Source: Variovorax paradoxus (lineage in GTDB: Bacteria; Pseudomonadota; Gammaproteobacteria; Burkholderiales; Burkholderiaceae_C). Taken from it: a stretch of DNA of 64,000 nucleotides. Positions 1,004 to 40,988 of the stretch are shown piece after piece. The number at the start of each line of letters is the position of its first letter. Positions within the stretch are counted from its first letter, which is position 1. The notes beneath the pieces were generated by a model. It did no database searches. It was not told the DNA's origin and saw only the letters and a list, made by a program, of their open reading frames with translations. Both the position numbers and the translations under genes were made by a program. Location: assembly GCF_029919115.1 (NCBI RefSeq), contig NZ_CP123990.1, positions 3,684,501 to 3,748,500 of the forward strand, read 5' to 3'.

Positions 1004-2788
1004 ATGGCTTCTTCTCCCCTGTCCTCACCGGCCAAGGGCTCGCCCCGATCGCTGTCGGGCCTGAGCCCTTTTCTTCGGCCCTACCGCGTCCAGATCGTGC
1101 TGGCCGGAATTTTTCTGGTGATGGCTGCCGTCACTACGCTGGTGTTTCCGCTGGCGCTGCGCAGCCTCATCGACGGCGGATTGATCAGCGCCGACAAGGG
1201 CGCTCAGACCATGGCGCTGCGGGAGCATTTCGGCGCCCTCTTCGCCGTGGCTGTCGCGTTGGGCCTGTTCTCGGCAGCACGCTTCTATACGGTGAGCTGG
1301 CTCGGCGAACGCGTCACGGCCGACCTGCGCAACGGGGTCTACGGACATGTGCTGCGCCAGAGCCCGGCGTTCTTCGAGACAACGCAAACCGGCGAAGTGC
1401 TGTCGCGCCTCACTGCCGACACCACGCTGGTGCAGACGGTGGTCGGCTCGTCGCTCAGCATGGGACTGCGCAACGCCGTCATGGGCGTGGGCGCGCTGGC
1501 GGTGCTGATCTGGACCAATCCCTATGTGATGGTGCAGGTGCTGGGGATCCTGGTGCTGGTGGTGCTGCCGAGCATGTGGTTCGGCCGCCGCGTGCGCAAA
1601 CTCTCGCGCGCCAGCCAGGACCGCGTGGCCGATTCGAGCGCCATTGCGGCCGAGGTGCTCAATGCGATTCCGGTGGTGCAAAGCTACACAGCGGAAGCGC
1701 GCGAAGCCGGCCGCTTCAATGCGTCGACAGAGAACGCATTCAGAACCGCCGTGCGGCGCACCAAGGCACGCTCGGTGCTGGTGGCATTCATCATCATCGC
1801 GACCTCGGCGGCGCTGCTCTGGGGCCTGTATCAGGGCACGCAAGCCGTGCTGCGCGGGGACATCACCGCGGGCCACCTGGGCCAGACGGTGGTCTACGTT
1901 GCGATTCTTGCAAGTGCAACCGCCGTGCTCGGCGAGGTCTATGGCGACCTGCTGCGCGCCGCCGGAGCAACCGAGCGCCTGATGGAACTGCTGCACGCAC
2001 CAGCGGCCATCGTTTCGCCGGCGAATCCGGCGGCTGCGCCTGTTCCCGTCGCGGGCAGTGCCGTCAAGTTCGAGACCGTCACTTTTCACTATCCTTCCAG
2101 GCCCGGCACTCCGGCGCTCAAAGACTTCAGCCTGGACGTCGCACCCGGCGAAACCGTGGCGCTGGTGGGTTCCAGCGGCGCCGGCAAGAGCACGGTGTTC
2201 CAGCTGCTGCTGCGCTACTACGATCCGCAGTCCGGCCGGCTGCTGCTCGACGGCGCGCCGCTGGCTTCATTGGCGTTGCCAGACCTGCGCACGCGCATCG
2301 GGCTGGTGCCGCAAGACGCGGTAATTTTCTCGGCCAGCGCGTTCGAGAACATTCGCTATGGACGCCCCGAGGCGACGGCCGACGAAGTGCACGCCGCCGC
2401 CCGCGCGGCCTTTGCACACGACTTTCTGCAGGCGCTGCCCGCGGGCTACGACACTTTCCTGGGCGAACGCGGGGTGCGCCTTTCGGGCGGACAGCGCCAG
2501 CGCATTGCAATTGCGCGCGCCATTCTCAAGAACCCGCCGCTGCTGCTGCTCGACGAAGCCACGAGTGCGCTCGATGCGGAGAGCGAGCGCATGGTGCAGG
2601 CCGCGCTCGAATCGGCCATGGAAGGCCGCACCACGCTGGTCATTGCGCACCGGCTTGCCACGGTGCAGAAGGCCGACCGCATCATCGTGCTGGACCATGG
2701 CGGCATCGTCGAACAGGGAACGCACGCCACGCTGGTGGCGCAAGGCGGGGTGTATGCCCGCCTTGCCGCCCTTCAGTTCACGGCCTGA
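1004..2788 (+). CDS. ABC exporter, fused permease-ATPase (MsbA/BmrA type half-transporter)
   Basis: A 594-residue half-transporter, presumably acting as a homodimer in the inner membrane. The first ~310 residues hold a six-helix transmembrane domain. The ATPase domain follows with Walker A GSSGAGKS (near residue 388), signature LSGGQRQRIAIARA (near 495) and Walker B LLLLDEATSALD (near 515), then the H-loop VIAHRLAT. The start at 1004 is chosen over an upstream codon at 911 because the extra segment would span the marR operator. Divergence from marR and the neighbouring outer membrane factor suggest drug or lipid-like substrate export; the actual substrate is not determinable. Confidence 0.9.
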   Translation: MASSPLSSPAKGSPRSLSGLSPFLRPYRVQIVLAGIFLVMAAVTTLVFPLALRSLIDGGLISADKGAQTMALREHFGALFAVAVALGLFSAARFYTVSWLGERVTADLRNGVYGHVLRQSPAFFETTQTGEVLSRLTADTTLVQTVVGSSLSMGLRNAVMGVGALAVLIWTNPYVMVQVLGILVLVVLPSMWFGRRVRKLSRASQDRVADSSAIAAEVLNAIPVVQSYTAEAREAGRFNASTENAFRTAVRRTKARSVLVAFIIIATSAALLWGLYQGTQAVLRGDITAGHLGQTVVYVAILASATAVLGEVYGDLLRAAGATERLMELLHAPAAIVSPANPAAAPVPVAGSAVKFETVTFHYPSRPGTPALKDFSLDVAPGETVALVGSSGAGKSTVFQLLLRYYDPQSGRLLLDGAPLASLALPDLRTRIGLVPQDAVIFSASAFENIRYGRPEATADEVHAAARAAFAHDFLQALPAGYDTFLGERGVRLSGGQRQRIAIARAILKNPPLLLLDEATSALDAESERMVQAALESAMEGRTTLVIAHRLATVQKADRIIVLDHGGIVEQGTHATLVAQGGVYARLAALQFTA

Positions 2789-29212: not shown

Positions 29213-30493
29213 ATGAAATCCGGACTGAATTTCCTGATCGCCGCCAGAAAGTGCGAAATCGACGAGCTCGACCAGCTCGCGCGCACCAGCGACCTGGTCG
29301 GGCTGATCGCGCGGCTCGTCCATGCGCTGCAGCGGGAGCGTGGCATGTCCAACGTGTTTCTCGCCTCGCGCGGCGTTCGCTTTGCCGACCAGCGCGACCC
29401 GCAGATCGCCGAATGCCTGGCACTCGAACAAGAGGTGCGCGCCGGATTCGACCAGCTCGAAACCGAAGGCCGCCCGGGCGCCACCGCAGGCAACAGCGCC
29501 CGCCTCTTCAGCCGCATTGCCTGGGTGCTTCCCGGCCTGGACGGCTTGCCCGCGCTGCGGCGCCGCGTGGCAGCGCTGGAGCTGACGCCCGCGCAGGCGA
29601 CCGCCGCTTTCGCCAAGCTCGTTGCCGGTCTGCTGGCCGTGGTGTTCGAGGCCGCCGACGGCGCCACCGACCCAGAGATTTCGCGCCTGCTCGTCGCGAT
29701 GTTCAACTTCATGCAGGGCAAGGAGTTTGCCGGCCAGGAGCGCGCCTTCGGAGCCGCGTCGCTGGCGGTGGGGCGTACCGACGAAGCGCAGCGCCAGCAA
29801 TGGCTGCACCTCATCGAGCTGCAGGAGCGCTGTTTCCAGGTCTTCATCGACTTTTCGAGCAGCGGCGTGCTAGCGCTGTGGCACCAGGGCCAGTCCGACG
29901 CCTTCATGGCCGAGATCGAGCGCCTGCGCCGCATGAGCGTGACCTCGGCCCAGGCGGCTTCGGGGGCCGCGCCCGACGCCCGGCTGAGCCAGAACTGGTT
30001 CGACTGCTGCACCCGCCGCATCGACGCCATGAAGACCGTCGAACACCGGTTGGCCGAAGAACTGCGCGAACTCTGCGCCCGCAAGATCGCGCAGGCACGC
30101 GGCGAGCTGCAGGAATACCAGCAAGTGCTCGGCACCCTCGCGCCGCAAGCCGAAGGCGCGATCTTCTTCGACGAGACCGGCACCGAGGCCACGGCACCGG
30201 CCCAATACGGCCGGCACCTCGAACGCTCGGTGCTCGACATGGTGCAGGAGCAATCGCACCGGCTGCAGGCCATGAGCGAAGAACTCGAGACCGTTCGCGC
30301 CTCCCTCAACGAGCGCAAGCTGGTCGAACGCGCCAAGGGCCTCCTGATGGCGCATCGGCGCATGAGCGAGAACGAGGCGCACAAGATGCTGCTGCAAACC
30401 GCCATGAACCAGAAGCGCCGCCTGGTGGACGTGGCCGAGTCGATGCTCGCCATGGCCGACTACCTGCCCCTGGACACGACATCGCGGCGCTGA
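29213..30493 (+). CDS. NIT-domain ANTAR antiterminator, nitrate-responsive (NasR-like)
   Basis: A 426-residue cytoplasmic regulator. Residues ~30-310 form a helical nitrate/nitrite-sensing NIT domain ([18 protein letters not shown] is its typical opening). The ANTAR RNA-binding domain covers ~365-420 ([20 protein letters not shown], then [14 protein letters not shown]). In Klebsiella NasR, the same architecture binds a leader hairpin and prevents termination when nitrate is present. The gene lies immediately before a leader with exactly such hairpins and the nrtABD genes. The start at 29213 has only a weak ribosome site. Confidence 0.92.
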
Positions 30494-30526: not shown

Positions 30527-30541
30527 GCACAACAAGCGTGC
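30527..30541 (+). promoter_or_regulatory. possible NtrC binding site
   Basis: GCACAACAAGCGTGC fits the GCAC-N7-GTGC core of NtrC sites, although the flanking pyrimidine/purine pair is not conserved. It lies about 105-120 bp upstream of the sigma-54 promoter, a normal enhancer distance. Confidence 0.35.
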
Positions 30542-30644
30542 ATCGCACCCACTTTCCGTCTCAGGGCCCCTGCGCACCCACCGGCAATCGTTCTTTTGCT
30601 GCCTATTCGATAGCACGGCGATAGCAAAAAACGGCCGACAAAGC

Positions 30645-30660
30645 TGGCACGCAGTTTGCT
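30645..30660 (+). promoter_or_regulatory. sigma-54 promoter of the nrtABD operon
   Basis: TGGCACGCAGTTTGCT matches the consensus TGGCACG-N4-TTGCW at every fixed base, with GG and GC separated by exactly 10 bp. Transcription should start near 30671, just upstream of the ANTAR hairpins. This implies nitrogen-limitation control through RpoN and an activator such as NtrC. Confidence 0.88.
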
Positions 30661-30692
30661 GAAGTAGTACATGGACCCCTGGGTCCGAGGCA

Positions 30693-30742
30693 GGCAGCAC
30701 CCAACGGCGGGTGTTGCCCACCGAAGTTGGACAAAGGCGTCC
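30693..30742 (+). promoter_or_regulatory. ANTAR tandem-hairpin antiterminator RNA element
   Basis: Hairpin P1 (30693-30718) has 10-bp arms GGCAGCACCC/GGGTGTTGCC, one G-U pair, and hexaloop AACGGC. After a 10-nt linker, hairpin P2 (30729-30742) has a GGAC/GTCC stem and hexaloop AAAGGC. Both loops have A at position 1 and G at position 4, the signature contacted by ANTAR domains. P2 uses AAAGGCGTCC, which is the 5' arm of the terminator, so P2 and terminator are mutually exclusive. The upstream NIT-ANTAR protein is the obvious ligand. Confidence 0.85.
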
Positions 30743-30807
30743 CCCATCCCGCAAGGGCTCGTTTTCGAGCAGCCCCTGCGCGGTGCGGGACGCCTTTTTC
30801 GTTTTTG
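30733..30807 (+). terminator. regulated intrinsic terminator in the nrtA leader
   Basis: AAAGGCGTCCC (30733-30743) pairs with GGGACGCCTTT (30787-30797). Inside, TCCCGCA/TGCGGGA and a GCTCG-TTTT-CGAGC hairpin add further stacking. TTTTTCGTTTTTG follows. It lies before nrtA, so default transcription would stop here unless P2 forms. Confidence 0.88.
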
Positions 30808-30852: not shown

Positions 30853-32097
30853 ATGACCGACCTGCTGAAAACCCGCCTCAGCCGCCGCCGCGTACTGCAA
30901 GCCGCCGCCATTGGCGCGGTGGGAATCGATCCCGCCCTGCGCGCTGCCGTCTGGGCCCAGGGCTCCGACAAGCCGGAAAAGGAAGAAGTGAAGATCGGCT
31001 TCATTCCCCTGACCGACTGCGCCAGCGTGGTGATGGCCTCGGTGCTCGGCATCGACAAGAAGTACGGCGTGAAGATCGTGCCCAGCAAGGAAGCCAGCTG
31101 GGCCGGCGTGCGCGACAAGCTCTCCAACGGCGACCTGGACATGGCGCACGTGCTCTACGGCCTGGTCTACGGCATGCACCTGGGCCTGAGCGGCCCCAAG
31201 AAGGACATGGCCGTGCTCATGACCCTCAACAACAACGGCCAGGCCATCACGCTGTCGAAGAAGCTCGCCGACAAGGGCGCGGTCGATGCCGCCTCGCTCG
31301 CCAAGCTCATCGCCACCGAAAAGCGCGAATACACCTTCGCCCAGACCTTTCCCACGGGCACCCACGCGATGTGGCTCTACTACTGGCTGGCCTCCGCCGG
31401 CATCGACCCTTTCAAGGACGTGAAGAACATCACCGTGCCGCCCCCGCAGATGGTGGCCAACATGCGCGTGGGCAACATGGACGGCTACTGCGTGGGCGAG
31501 CCGTGGGGCCAGCGCGCGATCATGGACGGCATCGGCGTGACGGCCATCACCACGCAGGACATCTGGAAGGACCATCCGGAGAAAGTGCTCGGCACCACGG
31601 GCGACTTCGTCAAGAAGTACCCCAACACCGCACGCGCCGTGACCGCGGCCATCATCGAAGCGGGCAAGTGGATCGACACCGGCCTGCAGAACAAGAACAA
31701 GATGGCCGAGACCATTGCCGACAAGAGCTACGTCAACACCAGCGTGGACGCCATCAACCAGCGCATCCTGGGCCGCTATGTCAACGGCATGGGCAAGAGC
31801 TGGGACGACCCCAACCACATGAAGTTCTACAACGGCGGTGCGGTGAGCTTTCCGTACCTGTCGGACGGCATGTGGTTCCTCACGCAGCACAAGCGCTGGG
31901 GCTTGCTGAAGGAGCACCCGGACTACCTGAAGGTGGCCACCGAGATCAACCGCATCGACATCTACAAACAGGCCGCCACTGCCACGCAGACGCCGGTTCC
32001 CAAGGACGTGATGCGTACCAGCAAGCTGTTCGACGGCACGGTGTGGGACGGCAAGGATCCGAAGAAGTACGCCGATTCTTTCAAGCTGCATGTCTGA
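30853..32097 (+). CDS. nrtA: nitrate ABC transporter, substrate-binding protein
   Basis: A 414-residue NrtA/CmpA-family binding protein. The N-terminus SRRRVLQAAAIGAVG looks like a Tat signal, consistent with export of a folded lipoprotein-less binding protein. Family motifs are KIGFIPLTDCASVVMAS, the FPTGTHAMWLYYWLASAGIDP block and NMDGYCVGEPWGQRA. It is first in an operon with the permease and ATPase. Nitrate is favoured over bicarbonate or cyanate by its setting among nitrate assimilation genes. Confidence 0.93.
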   Translation: MTDLLKTRLSRRRVLQAAAIGAVGIDPALRAAVWAQGSDKPEKEEVKIGFIPLTDCASVVMASVLGIDKKYGVKIVPSKEASWAGVRDKLSNGDLDMAHVLYGLVYGMHLGLSGPKKDMAVLMTLNNNGQAITLSKKLADKGAVDAASLAKLIATEKREYTFAQTFPTGTHAMWLYYWLASAGIDPFKDVKNITVPPPQMVANMRVGNMDGYCVGEPWGQRAIMDGIGVTAITTQDIWKDHPEKVLGTTGDFVKKYPNTARAVTAAIIEAGKWIDTGLQNKNKMAETIADKSYVNTSVDAINQRILGRYVNGMGKSWDDPNHMKFYNGGAVSFPYLSDGMWFLTQHKRWGLLKEHPDYLKVATEINRIDIYKQAATATQTPVPKDVMRTSKLFDGTVWDGKDPKKYADSFKLHV

Positions 32098-32110
32098 GGA
32101 GAAGCACATC

Positions 32111-33049
32111 ATGGTCAGCGCTGTATTTCATTCGCCGATGGACGCATCTCTCCCTCTCCCGCGTGCGGGCGAGGGCCGCAGTGAGGGCGTACCCCGTGCC
32201 GAGGCTGCCCCCCTCCCCACCCCACTCCTCAAAGTGGAGAAGGAGCAAAAGCAACGCACATCCGTCGACCTGCGTGCCTTCTGGATGCGCGTGCTGCCGC
32301 CGCTCGCGGGCTTCGGCTTGCTGGTGCTGATCTGGGAGCTGGTCGCCATGAAGAGCACCACCGGCTTTCCGTCGCCGCTTGCCACCTGGCAGCAGGCGCT
32401 CACGGTGTTCAGCGATCCGTTCTACAGCAAGGGCCCGAACGACCAGGGCGTGGGCTGGAACGTGCTCTCGTCGCTGCAGCGCGTGGCATTGGGCTTCGGG
32501 CTCGCGGCTGCAGTCGGCATTCCGGCTGGCTTTGCCATTGGGCGCTTCGAGTTTCTTTCGCGCATGTTCAATCCGCTGATCAGCCTGCTGCGCCCCGTGT
32601 CGCCGCTGGCCTGGCTGCCGATCGGCCTGCTGGTGTTCAAGGGCGCCAACCCGGCCGCCATCTGGACCATCTTCATCTGCTCGATCTGGCCGATGGTGAT
32701 CAACACCGCCGTGGGCGTGCAGCGCGTGCCGAGCGACTACATGAACGTGGCCAAGGTGCTCAACCTGAGCGAATGGAAGATCTTCACCAAGATCCTCTTC
32801 CCCGCCGTGCTGCCCTACATGCTGACCGGTGTTCGCCTGGCGGTGGGCACCGCCTGGCTGGTGATCGTCGCGGCCGAAATGCTCACCGGCGGCGTCGGTA
32901 TCGGCTTCTGGGTGTGGGACGAGTGGAACAACCTCAACGTCGCCAACATCATCATCGCGATCTTCGTCATCGGCATCGTCGGCCTGGTGCTGGAGTTTGC
33001 GCTCATCAAGCTTGCAACCGCGTTCACGTTCGAAGAGGTGAAGTCATGA
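32111..33049 (+). CDS. nrtB: nitrate ABC transporter, permease
   Basis: An inner membrane permease with five to six helices and the EAA-like loop ALGVQRV-type segment before LNLSEWKIFTKILFPAVLPY. The start at 32111 has a good GAGGAG site and gives 312 residues; 32090 is also possible, and an ATG at 32285 would begin just before the first helix. The N-terminal ~55 residues are low in similarity to permeases because they are encoded by an inserted palindromic repeat. It overlaps or abuts nrtA by a few bases. Confidence 0.9.
   Translation: MVSAVFHSPMDASLPLPRAGEGRSEGVPRAEAAPLPTPLLKVEKEQKQRTSVDLRAFWMRVLPPLAGFGLLVLIWELVAMKSTTGFPSPLATWQQALTVFSDPFYSKGPNDQGVGWNVLSSLQRVALGFGLAAAVGIPAGFAIGRFEFLSRMFNPLISLLRPVSPLAWLPIGLLVFKGANPAAIWTIFICSIWPMVINTAVGVQRVPSDYMNVAKVLNLSEWKIFTKILFPAVLPYMLTGVRLAVGTAWLVIVAAEMLTGGVGIGFWVWDEWNNLNVANIIIAIFVIGIVGLVLEFALIKLATAFTFEEVKS
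32145..32240 (+). repeat. dispersed palindromic (REP-like) repeat inside the nrtB 5' end
   Basis: Starts with CTCTCCCTCTCCCGC and a near-perfect hairpin at 32152-32175 (CCCTC-T-CCCGC, loop GT, GCGGG-C-GAGGG), continues GGCCGCAGTGAGGGCG and ends with a second small hairpin CCACT/AGTGG (32222-32237). It resembles intergenic repeats common in proteobacteria whose translation reads LPLPLAGEGRGEG. Here it reads in frame as LPLPRAGEGRSEG. Confidence 0.7.
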
Positions 33050-33108
33050 GCCGCATGGCCGTTCCGAAGGCGAATACCGCAGCGCTGCTGCGCGGAGGTT
33101 TCCAATGA
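33046..33108 (+). CDS. possible 20-codon minicistron between nrtB and nrtD
   Basis: An ATG overlapping the nrtB stop (ATGA) opens a 20-residue frame, MSRMAVPKANTAALLRGGFQ, whose stop overlaps the ATG of nrtD (ATGA again). It carries the GGAGG ribosome site of nrtD inside it. It may serve only for translational coupling, or be chance; no similarity is recognised. Confidence 0.3.
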   Translation: MSRMAVPKANTAALLRGGFQ

Positions 33109-33914
33109 ATGACGATTCCAAGTACATCGAGATCCACGACGTCGAGCAGCGCTTCAAGACGGCCAAGGGCAGCTTCCTCGCGCTTCGGGGCATCAACCTG
33201 AACGTAGCCAAGGGCGAGTTCATCACGCTCATCGGCCACTCGGGCTGCGGCAAGTCGACGCTGCTGAACCTGATTGCCGGACTGACGACGCCCACGCAAG
33301 GCGTGCTTCTGTGCGCCAACCGCGAAATCAAGGGCCCCGGCCCCGAGCGCGCGGTGGTCTTCCAGAACCACTCGCTGCTGCCTTGGCTCACCTGCTTCGA
33401 GAACGTGTACCTTGCAGTCGAGCGCGTCTTTGCCGCCACCGAGAACAAGGCGCAGTTGCGCGCACGCACCGATGCGGCGCTCGCGATGGTCGGCCTTGCA
33501 CCGGCCGCGCAAAAGCGCCCCGGCGAAATCTCGGGCGGCATGAAGCAGCGCGTGGGCATTGCACGCGCGCTCTCCATGGAACCCAAGGTCCTGCTGATGG
33601 ACGAACCCTTTGGCGCCCTCGATGCGCTCACGCGCGCCAAGCTGCAGGACGAACTGCTCGGCATCGTGCAGAAGACGCAGAGCACCGTCGTCATGGTCAC
33701 GCACGACGTCGACGAAGCGGTGCTGCTGAGCGACCGCATCGTGATGCTCACCAACGGTCCGGCCGCCACCATCGGCGAGGTGCTGAAGGTCGATATCGCA
33801 CGTCCGCGCAACCGCGTCGAACTGGCCGAAGACCCGGCCTATGTGCACGCCCGCAAGGCCGTGATCGATTTTCTCTACACGCGCCAGGCGCACGTGGAGA
33901 AGGTTGCGGCCTGA
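33105..33914 (+). CDS. nrtD: nitrate ABC transporter, ATP-binding protein
   Basis: A 269-residue ATPase energising NrtAB. Walker A GHSGCGKS, signature SGGMKQRVGIARAL, Walker B LLMDEPFGALD and switch VTHDVDEAVLL are all present. The LLPWLTCFENV segment is typical of the nitrate/sulfonate/taurine ATPases. No second, NrtC-type ATPase with a regulatory domain is present here. Convergent with the receiver-ANTAR-PilJ gene. Confidence 0.93.
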   Translation: MNDDSKYIEIHDVEQRFKTAKGSFLALRGINLNVAKGEFITLIGHSGCGKSTLLNLIAGLTTPTQGVLLCANREIKGPGPERAVVFQNHSLLPWLTCFENVYLAVERVFAATENKAQLRARTDAALAMVGLAPAAQKRPGEISGGMKQRVGIARALSMEPKVLLMDEPFGALDALTRAKLQDELLGIVQKTQSTVVMVTHDVDEAVLLSDRIVMLTNGPAATIGEVLKVDIARPRNRVELAEDPAYVHARKAVIDFLYTRQAHVEKVAA

Positions 33915-33939: not shown

Positions 33940-35232
33940 TCAGGACATGATGACTTGCAGGCTGTGTTCGTACCAGGCGGTGAGGCGCTCGAAAGTATCC
34001 ACCAGCGCTTCGCTGGACCGCACCAGCGTGGCGCGGCCCTCGGGGCTCTCGAGTGCCTGCACCCCTCCGACAAGGCGCAGCCATTCGTCTCTCGCGGCCG
34101 CCAGTGCCGCGCGGATATCCGGTGAACTGAGGGGCGCACGCTCCAGCTCCAGGAGCGCCGCCTCGAACTCGTTCATCGTCGGCAACAGGCGCTCGCGCGA
34201 AGCCCCCGCGGCAAGCGCCGAAGCAAGCAATGCGTCCTTGGCCAGGCGCTGCGCGCGCATGCGCTGCCGCCCGCAGATGTTGACGATGCGCAGCGCACGC
34301 CGCGCGCCGGAGGCTTCGAGCGCATCGGTCAGCGCCTCGGCAGCGGCCAGCAGCTCGTCGCCGAGCTTGTCGATGTCGGCCAGTGCCTGCGGCACCGCGC
34401 GCGCCGCCAGTGCGGCGGAAAGCCCGCTCCACGCGGCCTGCACATCGCCCAGCGCGCCCGCGCCCGGAGCGCCAAGCTCGAGGGTGGCCAGATGATCCAG
34501 GTTCTGCTGCACCCGCTCGACCGATTGCGTGCGCAGTACGCGCGCGCGCTGCACGTCGATGCCTGCCAGCATCTGAGCGGCAATCCGCACCAGCCGCTGC
34601 GACAGCATGCGCAATTGCCCGGCGCGGTTGATCGCGTCGGCCCACTGCGCAGCCTCGATCACCGAGCGCGACACCTCGCCCAGCCGCAGGTTGGCATGCA
34701 TGGCCGCGCCGCGCAGCAAGCCGAAGGCCTCGTCCTCGCCGATGCCGCGAGACGACATCAAGAGGCCCTTGGCGCGGTCGACCCATTTGCGTTCGTCCAT
34801 GCGCGTGCGCAGGCCGTCGAGTTCGGTGCGCAGAGCGGCCTCGCGTTCCCGCCGGGCCTGCGCCAGCGCCATCACCGCACGAAGCGACGCGCCGCCGAAA
34901 GCTTCAATCGGCAGCCACGCATGCACACCCAGAGCAACCAGCGCTTCGTGCTGGGCACTGTCCAGCGACGCACTGACGAGGCCCAGAGCGCAAGGAGGCG
35001 CGCCCTTCCATCCGCCGAGCGCATCGAGCAGCGCCTGCAGCTGTTGCGCCGGTGCGGGCAGCCAGGCGATCACCTGTTGCGGTGCAAGCGCACCCACCTT
35101 CTGCACCAGCGTGTGGCAGGTGCCCCGCTCGACGGCAGCGACGCCGGCGCTCGCCAGCGCCTGCTGGAGCGGCTCCGGCAGCGGCTCGGACTCGGCGAAA
35201 TCATTGGGCAGAACGACAAGAAGGGACATCAT
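33940..35232 (-). CDS. receiver-like/ANTAR/PilJ-domain regulator (nitrate-sensor-like)
   Basis: A 430-residue soluble protein with three parts. Residues ~1-125 resemble a degenerate response-regulator receiver (SLLVVLPNDF at the start). The ANTAR domain spans ~146-200 (MDERKWVDRAKGLLMSSRGI). The last ~230 residues are PilJ-like with two copies of a P-box-type motif, AGQLRMLSQRLVRI (~204-217) and GRQRMRAQRLAKD (~325-340). P-box motifs bind nitrate in NarX-type sensors. It is probably a second antiterminator sensing nitrate or nitrite in the cytoplasm; this is inference. Double ATG at 35232/35229. Confidence 0.85.
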   Translation of the reverse strand: MMSLLVVLPNDFAESEPLPEPLQQALASAGVAAVERGTCHTLVQKVGALAPQQVIAWLPAPAQQLQALLDALGGWKGAPPCALGLVSASLDSAQHEALVALGVHAWLPIEAFGGASLRAVMALAQARREREAALRTELDGLRTRMDERKWVDRAKGLLMSSRGIGEDEAFGLLRGAAMHANLRLGEVSRSVIEAAQWADAINRAGQLRMLSQRLVRIAAQMLAGIDVQRARVLRTQSVERVQQNLDHLATLELGAPGAGALGDVQAAWSGLSAALAARAVPQALADIDKLGDELLAAAEALTDALEASGARRALRIVNICGRQRMRAQRLAKDALLASALAAGASRERLLPTMNEFEAALLELERAPLSSPDIRAALAAARDEWLRLVGGVQALESPEGRATLVRSSEALVDTFERLTAWYEHSLQVIMS

Positions 35233-35284: not shown

Positions 35285-35300
35285 AGGCACGTCTCTTGCA
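35285..35300 (+). promoter_or_regulatory. sigma-54-like promoter of narK
   Basis: AGGCACGTCTCTTGCA matches the -24/-12 consensus at every fixed base but the first T, with GG-N10-GC spacing. Expected transcription start is near 35311, 179 nt before narK. Confidence 0.7.
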
Positions 35301-35311
35301 TCGACACGGGT

Positions 35312-35331
35312 GCGGTGTAACGAAGCACCGC
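35312..35331 (+). promoter_or_regulatory. single ANTAR-type hexaloop hairpin in the narK leader
   Basis: GCGGTGT (35312-35318) and GCACCGC (35325-35331) form a 7-bp stem closed by a U-G pair, with loop AACGAA: A at position 1 and G at position 4. It begins right at the predicted transcript start. No clear second hexaloop hairpin and no U-tract terminator follow before narK, so an antitermination role is unproven. Confidence 0.55.
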
Positions 35332-35489
35332 TTTGGTGAGGCTGCAGGCTCCTGCATCCATCCTGGCTGCGCAATGGCCGGGAAGCACCCCCACGCCGAC
35401 AGCGTCCGCCGCCGGCATTCCGCCCCAACCCCGTCCGTCGACTCGGCCCATCAAAGGCTGCGCCGCGGCATTTCGCACGATTGAACGCC

Positions 35490-36755
35490 ATGTCCAGTTT
35501 CAGGACCTTCTTGCACTCAGGCCACGGCCCGACGCTGTTCGCGGCCTTTCTGTACTTCTCGTTCTCCTGCTGCATCTGGGTGCTCAACGGCGCCATGGCG
35601 CCGTTCATCGGCGAAACCTTCGATCTTTCGCCCGCGCAAAAGGGCCTGATGCTGTCGGTGCCCATCATTGCGGGCGCGCTCATGCGCTTTCCACTGGGCA
35701 TCCTCTCGCAATACATCGGCCGCAAGAACGCCACGCTGGTCGAGATGGGCATGATCGCCGTGGCCATGCTGTTCGGCTTCTTCTTCGTGAAGAGCTTCAA
35801 CGACCTGCTGGCCATGGGCGTGCTGCTGGGCATTGCGGGCGCCAGCTTCGGCGTGGCGCTGTCGCTGGGTTCGGGCTGGTTTCCGCCGCAGCACAAGGGC
35901 CTGGCCATGGGCCTGGTGGGTGCCGGCAACGTGGGCACGGCGGTGTCGGTGCTGGTGGCGCCGCCGCTCGCGCAATGGCTCGGCTGGCAGGCGGTGTATG
36001 CCGTGGCGGCCGCCGCCATCCTGGTGCCGATGGTGGTGATGGTGGTGTTCGCCAAGGAGCCGCCCGACGTCGACAGCCACGCGAGCTTTCGCGAGCACAT
36101 TGCCTGCCTGTTCGAAAAAGACGGCTGGGTGTTCAGCCTGATCTACGGCGTGACCTTCGGCGGCTTCATCGGCCTCATCACCTTTTTGCCCTCTTACTAC
36201 TACGACCAGTTCGGCGTGAGCAAGGTGCAGGCGGGGCAACTCACGATGCTGGCGGCCTTCATGGGCGCCGCGGTGCGCATCGTCGGCGGCTGGATCTCCG
36301 ACCGCTGGGGCGGCGTGAACACGCTCACGGTGGTGCTGCTGGTGGTGGCTGTCGGGCTGGTGCTTGTGGGCATCTCGTCGTCTTCTCTTGCACTCACCAC
36401 GCTGCTCTTGATCTTGTGCTTTGCTGCGCTGGGCGCAGGCAACGGCGCGCTGTTTCAGCTGGTGCCGCTGCGCTGGCCCACCAGCACCGCAGTGGCCGGT
36501 TCGATGATCGGCGAAATCGGCGCACTGGGCGGCGGCCTTGTGCCCAACGCCATGGGCCTGTCGAAGCAATACCTGGGCAGCTACGTGTGGGGCTTTGTTT
36601 TCTTCGGCGTGCTGTCGCTCATCATGCTGGGCGTGATGCGCGTGATGCAGATCCGCTGGACCCGCACCTGGGCCGAAAAAGGTGGCCGTGCCCGCACTGC
36701 GCCGTCACCCGCCCCGGCCAAGTACACCGCTCCACCGAAGGCGGCGCGGCCATGA
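35490..36755 (+). CDS. narK: MFS nitrate/nitrite transporter, NarK family
   Basis: A 421-residue, 12-helix transporter. Nitrate signature-like segments occur: FGVALSLGSGWFPPQHKGLAMG and, in the second half, GGFIGLITFLPSYYYDQFG and AAVRIVGGWISDRWGG. An arginine in helix 2 (ALMRFPLGIL) matches the substrate-binding Arg of NarK proteins. The ATG at 35490 is preferred to the TTG at 35481. The last ~25 residues are a charged Pro/Ala tail. It is convergent with the PP2C-kinase gene. Confidence 0.92.
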   Translation: MSSFRTFLHSGHGPTLFAAFLYFSFSCCIWVLNGAMAPFIGETFDLSPAQKGLMLSVPIIAGALMRFPLGILSQYIGRKNATLVEMGMIAVAMLFGFFFVKSFNDLLAMGVLLGIAGASFGVALSLGSGWFPPQHKGLAMGLVGAGNVGTAVSVLVAPPLAQWLGWQAVYAVAAAAILVPMVVMVVFAKEPPDVDSHASFREHIACLFEKDGWVFSLIYGVTFGGFIGLITFLPSYYYDQFGVSKVQAGQLTMLAAFMGAAVRIVGGWISDRWGGVNTLTVVLLVVAVGLVLVGISSSSLALTTLLLILCFAALGAGNGALFQLVPLRWPTSTAVAGSMIGEIGALGGGLVPNAMGLSKQYLGSYVWGFVFFGVLSLIMLGVMRVMQIRWTRTWAEKGGRARTAPSPAPAKYTAPPKAARP

Positions 36756-36772: not shown

Positions 36773-38473
36773 TCAACGTGGCAAGAACAGCAGCCACACC
36801 ACGAGCAGTGCGTTGAACAGCAGCGACACGGCGAGCGCGATCTTGTAGAGCGCGGCCGGGTCGCGGCGGATCAGCGGCGTGGCGGGCGGCGCACCCACCG
36901 GGCGGGACGCGCCCCGCTCCAGGGCGAGCAGCATTTCCTCGGCGGTTTCGAAGCGCTCCTTCGGATCGCGCGCAACAGCCTTGCGCACGAGATGGTCGAG
37001 CCACACGGGTACATCGGGCCGCAGGCGCGAGAGCGCGGCCGGGTCGCGCCGATAGCGCGCCACCTGGTAGGGCTCGATTTCGCCATAAGGCAAGTGCCCG
37101 CCGAGCCACTGATAGAGCGTAACGCCGAGCGCGAACAGGTCGCTGCCGGTGTCGGCATGCGCGCCTTCCCATTGCTCGGGGTTGATGTAGCTCGGCGTGC
37201 CCGCATGCAGTTCGCGCTGGGCCGCGCCTTCGCGGCCCGACAGCGCCACGCCCAGGTCGAGAATGCGCCATCGGCCGTCGTCGCCCAGGTGCAGGTTGCC
37301 CGGCTTGATGTCTCGGTGCACCACGCCGTGGCGGTGCAGCCGGCCCAGGGCCTTGGTCACCTGGATGGCCGCAGCAACCACTTCGGCGACGGCACCGCGG
37401 CTATCGGATTTGCGCATCTGCTCCAGCGTTCGGCCCCCATGCCAATCGAACACGATGTAGAGCGCGCTGGCGTTTTCTGCACGCTCGTGCACGCGCACGA
37501 ACCCGCCGCTCCCCACGCGCTGGCCCAGCCAGGCTTCGTGCGCGAGCATCGCGCGCTCCTGCGGATCGCTGGCGCGCGAGGGATGCAGCGTCTTGAGCGC
37601 CACCAGTTCACGCGTGGCAGCGCTGCGCGCCTGGTAGAGCAGGTGCACGCCGGTATCGGCCACCAAGGCAGTGACCACGTAGCCGTCGAGCACCTCGCCC
37701 ACCTTCAGCAAGGGCGGCGGCGCCAAGCGGCGGCCGTCTCCCAGCTCGTCGTCCAGCTGCCGCGAATCGAGGCCGACGACGCGAATGACCAAGGCGGTCG
37801 CGTTGTCGCGCGTTGCGGCATCGAGCGCCGCGTTCACCAGCGCCTCGCTCGCCTGCTCGGCGCTCCCCTGCAAGGCCAGCGCGGCCAGGCGCTGCGGCTT
37901 GAGCACGCCGTGCACGCCGTCGGACGTGAGCACGAAGCAGTCGCCCACGCGCACATCGCCCTGCGCATAGTCGACGCGCACCTGGTCGTCCAGGCCGATG
38001 GCGCGCGTCAAGCGGCTGCGCATGTCCGGATGCTCGAAGGCATGGTCCTGCGTCAGCGGCATGGCCGGCTCGCCGTCGGCGCGCACGCGCCAGGCGCGCG
38101 TGTCGCCCACATGCGCGAGCGTGTAGCTCTGGCCGTGCAGCACCAGCGCCGTGAGCGTGGTGAGCGCGGTCGCGCTGCCCTGGCGCCGGCGGTTGTGATC
38201 GGCAAGCCAGGCGTTCTGCGCCGCCACCAGGCGGTCGAGCGCGGCGGTCGGCTCCCATGTGGCGGGCGTTGCGAAGTAGTCGGCCAGCAAGCCCATTACG
38301 GTGGTCTGCGCCGCTTCCAGGCCGCGTCCGCCGGTGGACACGCCGTCCGCAATGGCGGCAATGAGCCCGCGCGACTCGTCCCCCGGAGGTGCGTTGACGG
38401 CACCGGCAAAGTCTTCGTTCACTTCGCGCGGTCCGCGCTGGCTGCTGTAGCCGATGTCCACTTCAAAGCTCAT
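36773..38473 (-). CDS. PP2C phosphatase-Ser/Thr kinase fusion with C-terminal membrane helix
   Basis: A 566-residue bifunctional signalling protein. Residues ~1-235 are a PP2C domain (VNEDF, IADGVSTGGRG, HVGDTRAWRV, TSDGVHG and RDNATAL carry the metal aspartates). Residues ~262-530 are a Hanks-type kinase with VALKTLHP (Lys294), HRDIKPGNLHL (386-396), DLG in place of DFG (406-408) and GTPSYINPEQ. A single helix at ~545-563 anchors the tail. Such fusions sit in many nitrate assimilation loci, with unknown targets. Start 38473 has a GGAG site. Confidence 0.92.
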   Translation of the reverse strand: MSFEVDIGYSSQRGPREVNEDFAGAVNAPPGDESRGLIAAIADGVSTGGRGLEAAQTTVMGLLADYFATPATWEPTAALDRLVAAQNAWLADHNRRRQGSATALTTLTALVLHGQSYTLAHVGDTRAWRVRADGEPAMPLTQDHAFEHPDMRSRLTRAIGLDDQVRVDYAQGDVRVGDCFVLTSDGVHGVLKPQRLAALALQGSAEQASEALVNAALDAATRDNATALVIRVVGLDSRQLDDELGDGRRLAPPPLLKVGEVLDGYVVTALVADTGVHLLYQARSAATRELVALKTLHPSRASDPQERAMLAHEAWLGQRVGSGGFVRVHERAENASALYIVFDWHGGRTLEQMRKSDSRGAVAEVVAAAIQVTKALGRLHRHGVVHRDIKPGNLHLGDDGRWRILDLGVALSGREGAAQRELHAGTPSYINPEQWEGAHADTGSDLFALGVTLYQWLGGHLPYGEIEPYQVARYRRDPAALSRLRPDVPVWLDHLVRKAVARDPKERFETAEEMLLALERGASRPVGAPPATPLIRRDPAALYKIALAVSLLFNALLVVWLLFLPR

Positions 38474-38596
38474 GGCGCCATTCTCCATGTGCTTTCCACG
38501 CACTTCGCACGCGCACCGCGTGCTTCCTTTGCTTGATTCGTTGAAAGGCCCCACCCCATGCACAAACTCAAGCTCGTGATGGTCGGCAACGGCATG

Positions 38597-38618
38597 GCCG
38601 GCGTGCGCCGGCGTGCGC
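38597..38618 (+). repeat. 10-bp tandem duplication in nirB
   Basis: CCGGCGTGCG occurs twice in direct succession (38598-38607 and 38608-38617). Removing one copy restores the frame GMAGVRTLEEL expected for NirB. Confidence 0.9.
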
Positions 38619-39111
38619 ACCCTGGAAGAGCTCCTGAAGCTCGCCCCGGACATGTACGACATCACCGTCTTCGGCGCCGAGCCGCACCCCAACTACAACC
38701 GCATCCTGCTGTCGCCCGTGCTGGCCGGCGAGCAGACCGTGGACGAGATCGTGCTCAACAGCTGGGAGTGGTACACGGACAACCACATCACCCTGCATGC
38801 CGGCAAGAAGGTGGTCGAAGTCGACCGCGTCAAGCGCATCGTGCGCGCCGTCGACTCGCAAGGCGCCGTCACCGAGGCCGCCTACGACCGCCTCCTGATG
38901 TGCACCGGCTCCAATCCCTTCATGCTCCCCGTGCCCGGCAAGGACTTGAAGGGCGTGATCGCCTACCGCGACATTGCCGACACCGACTACATGATCGAGA
39001 CCGCCCGCACCCACAAGCACGCGGTCGTCATCGGCGGGGGCCTGTTCACCGCCGGCGGCGACTATTCGGCCACGCCCAAGAAGAAGGCGGTGTGCGGCTG
39101 CACCGACGCGA

Positions 39112-39245
39112 GCCACCAGGAGGTGCGCGAAGCGATCAAGAAGGAACACTACCTCACGCACGACGAGGTCTACCGCAAGCCACCAGGAGGTGCGCGAAGC
39201 GATCAAGAAGGAACACTACCTCACGCACGACGAGGTCTACCGCAA
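39112..39245 (+). repeat. 67-bp exact tandem duplication in nirB (first)
   Basis: Positions 39112-39178 are repeated without change at 39179-39245, each beginning GCCACCAGGAGG and ending GTCTACCGCAA. Because 67 is not a multiple of three, the frame is broken; removing one copy rejoins the HQEVREAIKKEH region to NLGWRTPNGCATC. Confidence 0.95.
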
Positions 39246-39994
39246 CCTGGGCTGGCGCACGCCCAACGGCTGCGCGACCTGCCGCCCGGCCATCAACTAC
39301 TACCTGATCTCCACCTGGCCCAAGGAAGCCAAGGACGATCCGCAGAGCCGCTTCATCAACGAGCGCAGCCACGCCAACATCCAGAAGGACGGCACCTATT
39401 CGGTGATTCCGCGCATGTGGGGCGGCCACACCACCCCGGACGAGCTGCGGCGCATCGCGGATGCGGCGGACAAGTACAAGATTCCGACGGTCAAGGTCAC
39501 GGGCGGCCAGCGCATCGACCTCCTGGGGGTGAAGAAGGAAGACCTGGAGGGGGTGTGGAAGGACATCGGCATGCCGTCGGGCTTTGCCTATGCCAAGAGC
39601 CTGCGCACGGTGAAGACCTGCGTGGGCAGCGAGTGGTGCCGCTTCGGCACGCAGGATTCGACCCAGATGGGCAAGGACCTGGAGCGGGCGCTGTGGGCGA
39701 TGTATTCGCCGCACAAGGTCAAGCTGGCGGTCTCGGGCTGCCCGCGCAACTGCGCCGAGGCGGGGATCAAGGACGTGGGGGTGATCGGGGTGGATTCGGG
39801 CTGGGAGCTGTATGTGGGCGGCAACGGCGGCATCAAGACGGAGGTGGCGCAGTTCCTGGTGAAGGTGAAGACGGCCGCCGAGGTGATGGAGTACTCGGGC
39901 GCCTTCCTGCAGCTGTACCGCGAGGAAGGCTGGTACCTGGAGCGCACGGTGCACTACATCGGTCGCGTGGGGCTGGACTATGTGAAGAAGAAGA

Positions 39995-40128
39995 TCCTGG
40001 AAGACGAGGCCGGCCGCAAGGCGCTGTGGGAGCGGCTGCAGTTCGCGCTGGACGGGGAGCCTCCTGGAAGACGAGGCCGGCCGCAAGGCGCTGTGGGAGC
40101 GGCTGCAGTTCGCGCTGGACGGGGAGCC
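39995..40128 (+). repeat. 67-bp exact tandem duplication in nirB (second)
   Basis: Positions 39995-40061 are repeated without change at 40062-40128, each beginning TCCTGGAAGACGAGG and ending GACGGGGAGCC. Removing one copy joins ALDGEP to DPWFESSQASVD and the natural stop at 40193-40195. Confidence 0.95.
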
Positions 40129-40208
40129 CGATCCCTGGTTCGAGTCCAGCCAGGCTTCTGTGGATGTGCGGCAGTTCACGCCGCTCACGGTGTAGGCGGG
40201 GAAGCTAC

Positions 40209-40988
40209 TTGAAAAGACGACTCTTCATCGCTTCTTCCGCGCTTGCCGCGGTGGGTGCCCGCGCGCAGGTGGCCGACCTCAACGACGCCATCAACAAGGC
40301 GGGCCGCCAGCGCATGCTCTCGCAGCGTGCGAGCAAGGCGTATCTCGCGCTGGCGCAAAAGGTAGAAACGCGCAATGCGCAGCAAGTGCTCGACAAATCG
40401 ATTGCACTGTTCGAAAGGCAACTGACCGAGCTCAAGGCCTTTGCACCGAGCCCGGCCATCCGCGGCACCTACGACGCACTCGACGGCGCCTGGGGCGAAT
40501 TCAAGCGCGAACTCACCGCCCCTGCATTCGACAAGGACGGCGCCACCAGGATCGTCAAGCTCGATGCCGCCGTGCTCACGCTTGCGAACCAGGGCACCAC
40601 ACAGTACGAAACCGCCTCGGGCAAGCCGGTGGGCCGGCTGGTGAACATCGCCGGCCGGCAGCGCATGCTGTCCCAGCGCATGGCCAAGTTCTACCTGGCC
40701 GGCGCAATGCAGATCGACACGGCTGGCAGCACGGCCGAAATCACAAAGGCGCGCGGCGAATTCCTTGCCGCGCTCGAAACCCTGCGCAACGCGCCGGAAG
40801 CTACGGCGCAAATCCGCCAGGAACTGGTTCTGGCCGATGCGCAGTGGATGTTCTTCAACCGCGGCCTCCAGCGCCTCGAAGGCGCCGCCACCTCACCCGC
40901 CCTGATGTCCGACGTGTTCGTGGCCAGCGAGAACCTGCTGGCCATCATGGACCGCGTGACCGGCCTGTATTCAGACCTCAAAACCTAG
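40209..40988 (+). CDS. exported PilJ-domain protein, nitrate-sensor-like (TTG start)
   Basis: A 259-residue protein beginning with TTG; the first ~20 residues (KRRLFIASSALAAVGARAQ) are a signal peptide, so no later start is plausible. The mature protein has two P-box-like repeats, AINKAGRQRMLSQRASKAY and VNIAGRQRMLSQRMAKFY, of the type IV pili chemotaxis-transducer (PilJ) N-terminal domain also found in NarX-type sensors. It has no membrane helix or output domain, so it would act in the periplasm, perhaps binding nitrate. It lies between nirB and nirD. Function is not established. Confidence 0.82.
   Translation: MKRRLFIASSALAAVGARAQVADLNDAINKAGRQRMLSQRASKAYLALAQKVETRNAQQVLDKSIALFERQLTELKAFAPSPAIRGTYDALDGAWGEFKRELTAPAFDKDGATRIVKLDAAVLTLANQGTTQYETASGKPVGRLVNIAGRQRMLSQRMAKFYLAGAMQIDTAGSTAEITKARGEFLAALETLRNAPEATAQIRQELVLADAQWMFFNRGLQRLEGAATSPALMSDVFVASENLLAIMDRVTGLYSDLKT

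Follow-up and report, generated by a model that had tools for sequence, protein, structure and literature searches.

A NasR/nasF-type attenuator before nrtA and a candidate single-hexaloop ANTAR target before narK in the nitrate cluster of Variovorax paradoxus

The nitrate cluster of Variovorax paradoxus raises the question of which RNA leaders its ANTAR proteins would read, and with what output. We analyzed a stretch of 64,000 nucleotides (the window, whose first letter is position 1) from a single-contig genome of 5.81 Mb, in which two ANTAR domains were found, both in this cluster. One belongs to a regulator with a NIT domain, encoded upstream of nrtA, and the other to a protein with PilJ-type stretches, here called ANTAR-PilJ, encoded divergently from narK. 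A preliminary description of this DNA had proposed an ANTAR antitermination leader behind a consensus sigma-54 promoter at nrtA, downstream of a gene for a NIT-ANTAR protein; the promoter is an exact site, the upstream gene carries both domains, and all parts of the leader were found, as follows.

29213-30493, forward strand: NIT-ANTAR one-component regulator, NasR-like (Pfam NIT, 7.4e-53, and ANTAR, 8.6e-17; phmmer to the NasR structure 4akk, 5.1e-46)
30527-30541, no strand assigned: NtrC-like palindrome GCAC-N7-GTGC (GCACAACAAGCGTGC), from congeneric nrtA promoters against controls
30645-30660, forward strand: sigma-54 promoter TGGCACG-N4-TTGCT (TGGCACGCAGTTTGCT), the lone zero-mismatch site in the 64 kb; predicted +1 at 30671
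30673-30686, forward strand: 5'-end hairpin of the nrtA leader, GGACC-CCTG-GGTCC, no hexaloop (fold)
30693-30718, forward strand: P1 hairpin, GGCAGCACCC-AACGGC-GGGTGTTGCC, loop 30703-30708 (fold, hairpin scan and covariation among relatives)
30729-30742, forward strand: P2 antiterminator hairpin, GGAC-AAAGGC-GTCC, loop 30733-30738 (hairpin scan and congeneric leaders)
30733-30799, forward strand: intrinsic terminator using P2 bases, U-run 30795-30799 (fold and a paired C-G to A-U change)
30853-32097, forward strand: nrtA-like nitrate-binding protein (Pfam NMT1_2, 8.6e-103)
32090-33049, forward strand: nrtB-like permease, start codon uncertain (domain search)
33105-33914, forward strand: nrtC/D-like ABC ATPase (domain search)

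The nrtA leader carries all the parts of an attenuator, with P2 and the terminator mutually exclusive by sequence and fold, and these parts are conserved among relatives and marked by compensating changes. A scan of both strands of the window for two AANG hexaloop hairpins, with stems of at least 4 pairs and loops 20 to 55 nt apart, returned P1 and P2 as the sole tandem pair, their A1/G4 loops (AACGGC and AAAGGC) lying 30 nt apart at the positions first described. The segment from 30671 to 30807 folds at -76.9 kcal/mol, compared with -53.0 ± 4.0 for shuffled sequences (z of -5.95; 0 of 200 shuffles equally good), and the minimum-energy structure contains P1 and the terminator and lacks P2, a hairpin of only 4 pairs. 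The 5' arm of the terminator consists of the P2 loop and the P2 3' arm, in agreement with the overlap that had been proposed. No Rfam family reached its gathering score in the window. Sub-threshold matches to P11 (RF00625; 27.5 bits, gathering score 70) and to narK RNA (RF03032; 25.2 bits, gathering score 43.2) fall on the leader (30633-30794), and the hexaloop hairpins are visible by eye in both. The P11 consensus, again by eye, includes a sigma-54-like promoter and GGACAAAGGCGUCC, which suggests that P11 and narK RNA are themselves leaders of the attenuator kind. A literature search that left most subscription papers outside its reach found no account of either family as an ANTAR leader.

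The NIT-ANTAR protein is present in 38 of 150 family genomes. We fetched 30 family loci, that of the window among them, and in 27 the P2 motif lies 3' of the NIT-ANTAR gene (L024, L028 and L032 do not show it); 26 of these 27 have a sigma-54 site by pattern, and the remaining one, L014, has a variant -12 element by eye. A covariance model was built from 24 family leaders, with the window and its two nearest relatives excluded and no leader from the window's genus used; the nrtA leader scored 45.0 bits against it (E = 1e-9). Genome-wide, the same model gave the nrtA leader an E value of 9.4e-8 and the next match 22.4 bits (E of 0.04); six weaker matches (14 to 22 bits) lacked promoter and terminator on inspection and were rejected as further attenuators. 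The model also matched 87 of 101 Variovorax genomes at E ≤ 0.001, the other 14 giving no match under strict filters, and 67 of 300 genomes in a sample of the order.

Compensating changes are seen in the terminator helix and in P1. In the helix between the P2 loop and 3' arm and the terminator 3' arm, 98.1% of cells are paired across 27 leaders (slid controls, 29 to 67%). P2 loop position 3 and its terminator partner are C-G in 23 leaders, A-U in 3 (the window and its two nearest relatives) and another combination in 1; this swap is the lone double change in a helix whose remaining pairs are nearly invariant. The P1 stem has both-sided changes in 7 of 8 pairs over 24 leaders, with 84.1% of cells paired; in the family leader L007, P1 is reduced to 2 pairs. 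Within the genus, 30 leaders retrieved with the pattern GACAANGGCGTC all have the loop AAAGGC with an A-T terminator partner, and their P1 loops, 28 to 31 nt 5' of P2, read AACGGC in 27 and AATGGC in 3. Family member L029 has a second leader with GGACAAAGGCGTCC and a terminator (1248-1347, reverse strand) on the far side of the NIT-ANTAR gene, and two loci from other Burkholderiales (L261 and L264) have narK-like leaders with, by eye, what seem to be three consecutive A1/G4 hexaloops ahead of a terminator.

The promoter has a likely input of its own. Of 30 congeneric nrtA loci, 25 have a GCAC-N7/8-GTGC palindrome 5' of the sigma-54 promoter, compared with 27 of 555 control stretches; of 30 congeneric narK promoters, 1 has such a palindrome within 200 nt. 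From its fit to the NtrC consensus, we take the copy at 30527-30541 to be a probable NtrC site. On the protein side, EutV RNA-contact residues were transferred through sequence alignments (numbering offset of 2), and the NIT-ANTAR protein keeps R142, K143, K149, E160, M172, N173 and R177, with Arg for K147, His for Y164 and Lys for R175; of the residues that contact G4 in EutV, R142, K149 and E160 are therefore kept and Y164 is replaced by His.

The stretch from 30645 to 30799 is thus very probably a transcription attenuator of the NasR/nasF type for the nrtABD nitrate-uptake operon, with nitrate and the NIT-ANTAR protein letting polymerase through. Nitrogen limitation, acting through RpoN and probably NtrC at 30527-30541, would start transcription near 30671. 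When nitrate is absent, the nascent RNA would form P1 and the terminator and transcription would stop near 30799. When nitrate or nitrite is present, the NIT-ANTAR protein would bind both A1/G4 hexaloops, in P1 and in P2, and stabilize P2, and the 5' arm of the terminator would then be taken up, so that polymerase would enter nrtA. Binding, nitrate response and read-through are expected here by analogy with NasR and EutV.

A rather unlikely alternative is that ANTAR-PilJ reads the nrtA leader, alone or with the NIT-ANTAR protein, so that two sensors would serve one attenuator. The genome offers some ground for it: its only two ANTAR genes share one cluster, one attenuator was found, and the nrtA and narK hexaloops are of the same kind. 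However, the attenuator and ANTAR-PilJ do not track each other, since unmatched genomes occur both ways: the attenuator model matches 87 and ANTAR-PilJ 72 of the 101 Variovorax genomes, G448 and G496 have the leader without ANTAR-PilJ, and 9 genomes have ANTAR-PilJ without an attenuator match. The position of the NIT-ANTAR gene 5' of the P2 motif in 27 of the 30 family loci also speaks against it.

The nasFED genes of Klebsiella encode an ABC nitrate transporter. The preliminary description had likened the locus to Klebsiella nas and had taken the placement on an ABC uptake system as the difference; the likeness stands (a NasR-type attenuator, a sigma-54 promoter and a NIT-ANTAR neighbor), and the supposed difference falls away, as nasF itself heads such a transporter. 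The available text of the reports on NasR names the nasF leader as its target, nasF being the promoter-proximal gene of nasFEDCBA, and the two systems have in common a NIT-ANTAR regulator, tandem A1/G4 hairpins and a leader terminator (PMC7496416, PMC3369931, PMC3795266); ANTAR hits before nitrate and nitrite transporters were also already known from the accessible part of one of them (PMC3369931). In contrast to Klebsiella, the host is a beta-proteobacterium, and its cluster also contains narK and another ANTAR protein. We found no difference in the attenuator itself, a comparison made without alignment to the Klebsiella leader, and the nrtA leader is an ordinary attenuator of this type, not distinct from Klebsiella in the way claimed.

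The second ANTAR gene and the transcript divergent from it comprise the following features.

33940-35232, reverse strand: ANTAR-PilJ, with a receiver-like domain, ANTAR and two PilJ-type stretches (Pfam ANTAR, 4e-18; PilJ, 5.9e-18); divergent from narK
35285-35300, forward strand: sigma-54-like promoter of the narK leader (AGGCACGTCTCTTGCA), 1 mismatch, GG and GC kept; found by pattern in 29 of 30 congeneric loci, own locus counted; predicted +1 at 35311
35312-35331 (+2 to +21), forward strand: narK 5'-end hairpin GCGGTGT-AACGAA-GCACCGC, loop 35319-35324 (invariant letters, compensating stems)
35490-36755, ATG at 35490, forward strand: narK-like MFS nitrate/nitrite transporter (Pfam MFS_1, 1e-40; narK by context)

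In the AlphaFold model of ANTAR-PilJ (pLDDT of 91.1 and pTM of 0.70 from 25 sequences), the N-terminus resembles a receiver, the ANTAR helices are present, and a long C-terminal part is entirely helical. Its best Foldseek match in the PDB is the EutV-RNA complex 6ww6 (4.5e-07), with AmiR 1qo0 at 4.5e-05; the matches span about 200 of the 430 residues and place this part of the protein in the receiver-ANTAR fold. This half resembles NasT and EutV. Unlike NasT, ANTAR-PilJ has PilJ-type bundles in the same chain and, by eye, no acidic residue at its third strand, QVIAWL (residues 53 to 58), with no Asp in or just after this expected place of phosphorylation. Of the EutV RNA contacts, R142, K143, K149, E160, M172 and R177 are kept, with Arg for K147, Phe for Y164, His for N173 and Asn for R175. 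Among 7,996 candidates scored, 1,537 homologues were found at E ≤ 1e-20, and both Pfam domains were present in all 120 homologues among the matches listed. The NarX-like P-box of PilJ proteins serves nitrate sensing in this family, by which the PilJ part of ANTAR-PilJ would sense nitrate as well. One more PilJ-type protein (2.8e-23), in which Pfam recognizes nothing else, is encoded at 40185-40985, 3' of nirB, and is possibly a second nitrate sensor.

The narK leader of the window has an A1/G4 loop like that of the first hexaloop in dual-hexaloop ANTAR attenuators, and the tandem scan found no second hexaloop hairpin in it (35311-35489). All 30 congeneric loci, own locus counted, share the hairpin letters CGGTGTAACGAAGCACCG without a change, and four more helices, partly with double changes, are predicted 3' of it in congeneric leaders. 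Neither the attenuator model nor Rfam picks up this leader, and 35311-35486 folds no more stably than shuffled sequences do (z of 0.28), so the case for the hairpin rests on conservation and not on stability.

A model of promoter and hairpin together (R2) matched 72 of the 101 Variovorax genomes, identical to the 72 with ANTAR-PilJ; this co-occurrence partly reflects linkage, because the hairpin, ANTAR-PilJ and narK form one linked block in the genus, and four genomes without ANTAR-PilJ that were opened had no narK in the 15 kb fetched. In 19 Variovorax genomes, R2 matches a second time, at a distance of 0.7 Mb or more or on a different contig, and these 19 sites are related by descent. The second site of the window genome is 1.48 Mb away, 5' of a nirB-like gene, and has CGGTGTAACGAAGCACCGCTTTGGTGAGG and CCCCAACCCCGTCCGTCGA in common with the narK leader. 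AACGAA recurs at 15 of the 16 second sites inspected (own site counted), while G488 (L303) has no such hairpin; the nirB start falls in the aligned stretch for 9 of these 15. The R2 training loci include a near relative of the window; neither the nirB site of this genome nor that of G091 was among them. Hairpin and ANTAR-PilJ are not exclusively paired: the nirB leader of G091 has the hairpin (40.3 bits), and only a receiver-ANTAR part was matched there. A second promoter and hairpin site also occurs in G362 (C1:2039775-2039825, L287; 39.5 bits), a genome with ANTAR-PilJ and without a full NIT-ANTAR match.

Several neighboring genes deserve mention. A fused PP2C phosphatase and Ser/Thr protein kinase lies between narK and nirB (36773-38620, reverse strand), and several related loci also encode such a fusion close to narK or to ANTAR-PilJ. 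The nirB of the window (38559-40200) is partial and rearranged, matching residues 2 to 158 and 474 to 810 of an 813-residue relative in several frames; a second partial, rearranged copy (G000:C1, about 2237073-2239073; L286, 4074-6074) matches residues 2 to 502 and 769 to 813 of the same relative. The two copies reflect either a real rearrangement or an assembly fault.

Beyond the genus, a profile search of genome contigs with an ANTAR-PilJ alignment yielded 79 loci from the best 80 of 185 stretches, 44 of them from Variovorax and the rest from Xenophilus, Aquabacterium, Ideonella, Hydrogenophaga, Rhodoferax, Methylibium and more; with L101 and L102, 81 loci were compared. A hairpin was counted when at least 6 of 7 pairs enclosed a hexamer 32 to 38 nt past the start of a divergent sigma-54-like site, loop letters being ignored. 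Such a hairpin opens the divergent transcript in 76 of the 81 loci and was not scored in L215, L222, L228 (5 of 7 pairs), L232 (too little upstream DNA) and L242. The loops are AACGAA (53), AACGAC (8), GACGAA (5), GACGAT (3), AACGGC (3) and, once each, AACGAG, ACCGCT, AAAGAC and GCAGCC, so that all 76 have G4 and a purine first (A1 in 67, G1 in 9). Among the 42 distinct hairpins, 97.3% of cells are paired (a value raised by the selection; slid controls, 25 to 55%), and both-sided changes occur in 50 cells, compared with a shuffled mean of 13.8 (0 of 500 shuffles as high). Because the arms vary while the loop hardly does, we read this element as an RNA hairpin and not as a DNA operator. The divergent gene, where recognized in the 40 loci checked, is narK, nirB or nrtA.

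Loci of the Hydrogenophaga/Rhodoferax type (L235, L236, L238-L241, L243 and L248) have a second AACGAC-like hexaloop about 45 nt on. In the sample of 300 genomes of the order, R2 gave matches at E ≤ 0.05 in 60, most of them weak. Where ANTAR-PilJ is missing, the matches include, by eye, full attenuators with the first hairpin at the same place (L260, L262 and L265) and narK leaders that carry three hexaloops each (L261 and L264). The narK hairpin is linked to P1 by the fact that the first hairpin of these attenuators has the same distance from the promoter.

The same terminator scoring, a hairpin of -20 kcal/mol or lower ahead of a U-run, was applied to attenuators and to the narK class. It passes 24 of 27 attenuator leaders (2 to 6 among shuffles, six rounds) and 5 of 76 narK-class leaders (2 to 8 among shuffles, ten rounds), so that the narK class shows no excess. 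Looser cut-offs likewise gave 26 of 76 at -8 (shuffles, 18 to 27), 25 at -10 (16 to 26) and 15 at -15 (9 to 16), and 33 of the 76 loci picked for diversity gave 3 at -20 (3 to 6). No terminator was scored in the narK leader of the window or in the nirB leader of the genome. An early rule had seemed to support terminators (12 of 33 at -8 kcal/mol; shuffles, 1 to 10); it was discarded as faulty, having recovered only 7 of 28 known attenuators because its hairpins were restricted to 42 nt or less. The attenuator model, run on 35 of the loci, had no match at a divergent leader, its weak match in L245 lying inside narK. The hairpin scan, the attenuator model and the terminator test together lead us to reject a hidden P2 or terminator in the narK leader; a terminator is not a feature of the class, and single leaders of the class may carry one.

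The EutV system is the closest guide to what a lone hexaloop could do. In the available text of the EutV-RNA structure report (PMC8934654), hexaloops are recognized by ANTAR with G4 as a base-specific contact, the minimal ANTAR target is redefined as one hexaloop, EutV binds single hexaloops and single-hexaloop targets are allowed for; antitermination requires two closely spaced hexaloops and a terminator, and was abolished when the spacing was lengthened by 20 nt. The narK leader, in contrast, has one hexaloop and, by our scoring, no terminator-like hairpin, and a lone 5' hexaloop of this kind should not act as an EutV-type attenuator, given that spacing result. NasT hairpins have been predicted in a Bradyrhizobium narK leader, as far as the accessible text goes (PMC6759348), and apart from PMC8934654 our search, which left most subscription papers outside its reach, found nothing on a single-hexaloop, PilJ or Variovorax ANTAR system.

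From their sequences, narK-type leaders are candidate single-hexaloop ANTAR targets with a mechanism other than intrinsic termination, and the lone narK hexaloop is most likely a binding site for ANTAR-PilJ with another output. We advance more tentatively, as a possibility somewhat short of probable, that ANTAR-PilJ and the 5' single-hexaloop leader of narK (nirB or nrtA elsewhere) form a private regulator-target pair that diverged from attenuators and exerts terminator-independent control. In this reading the hexaloop, at about +8, would bring an ANTAR dimer that senses nitrate to the beginning of the emerging RNA, and control might then act, for example, via Rho-dependent termination, translation or mRNA stability.

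It is quite improbable that the hairpin is instead a functionless remnant, the P1 of an attenuator since lost to decay. Full attenuators do occur in genomes without ANTAR-PilJ, before narK and nirB in G020 and before nirB in G448, G280 has a second full attenuator, and the Variovorax narK leader shows neither P2 nor terminator, which speaks for decay. However, a decayed hairpin would hardly keep its letters in 30 of 30 congeneric loci, be maintained in other genera through double changes at several times the shuffled rate, or recur 1.48 Mb away with AACGAA in nearly all second sites inspected. That the hairpin is a DNA operator or a 5'-end protection against decay, unrelated to ANTAR, is quite doubtful too, for although its letters from +2 to +21 form an inverted repeat, the nrtA leader likewise opens with a hairpin and arms and loop are equally invariant in Variovorax, across genera the arms compensate while the hexamer keeps its first purine and G4 throughout under a loop-blind selection, and an equally placed hairpin opens, by eye, full attenuators of other Burkholderiales (L260, L262 and L265).

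The pair of ANTAR-PilJ and narK leader matters more than the nrtA leader, as it is a conserved candidate class with a likely cognate protein. If our reading is true, the narK leader would exemplify an ANTAR target with a single hexaloop occurring in nature, and the cell would possess, side by side, two ANTAR circuits that respond to nitrate through different outputs. Some related genomes without ANTAR-PilJ carry full attenuators at the same genes and offer an internal comparison, and the pair makes ANTAR regulation without an intrinsic terminator directly testable.
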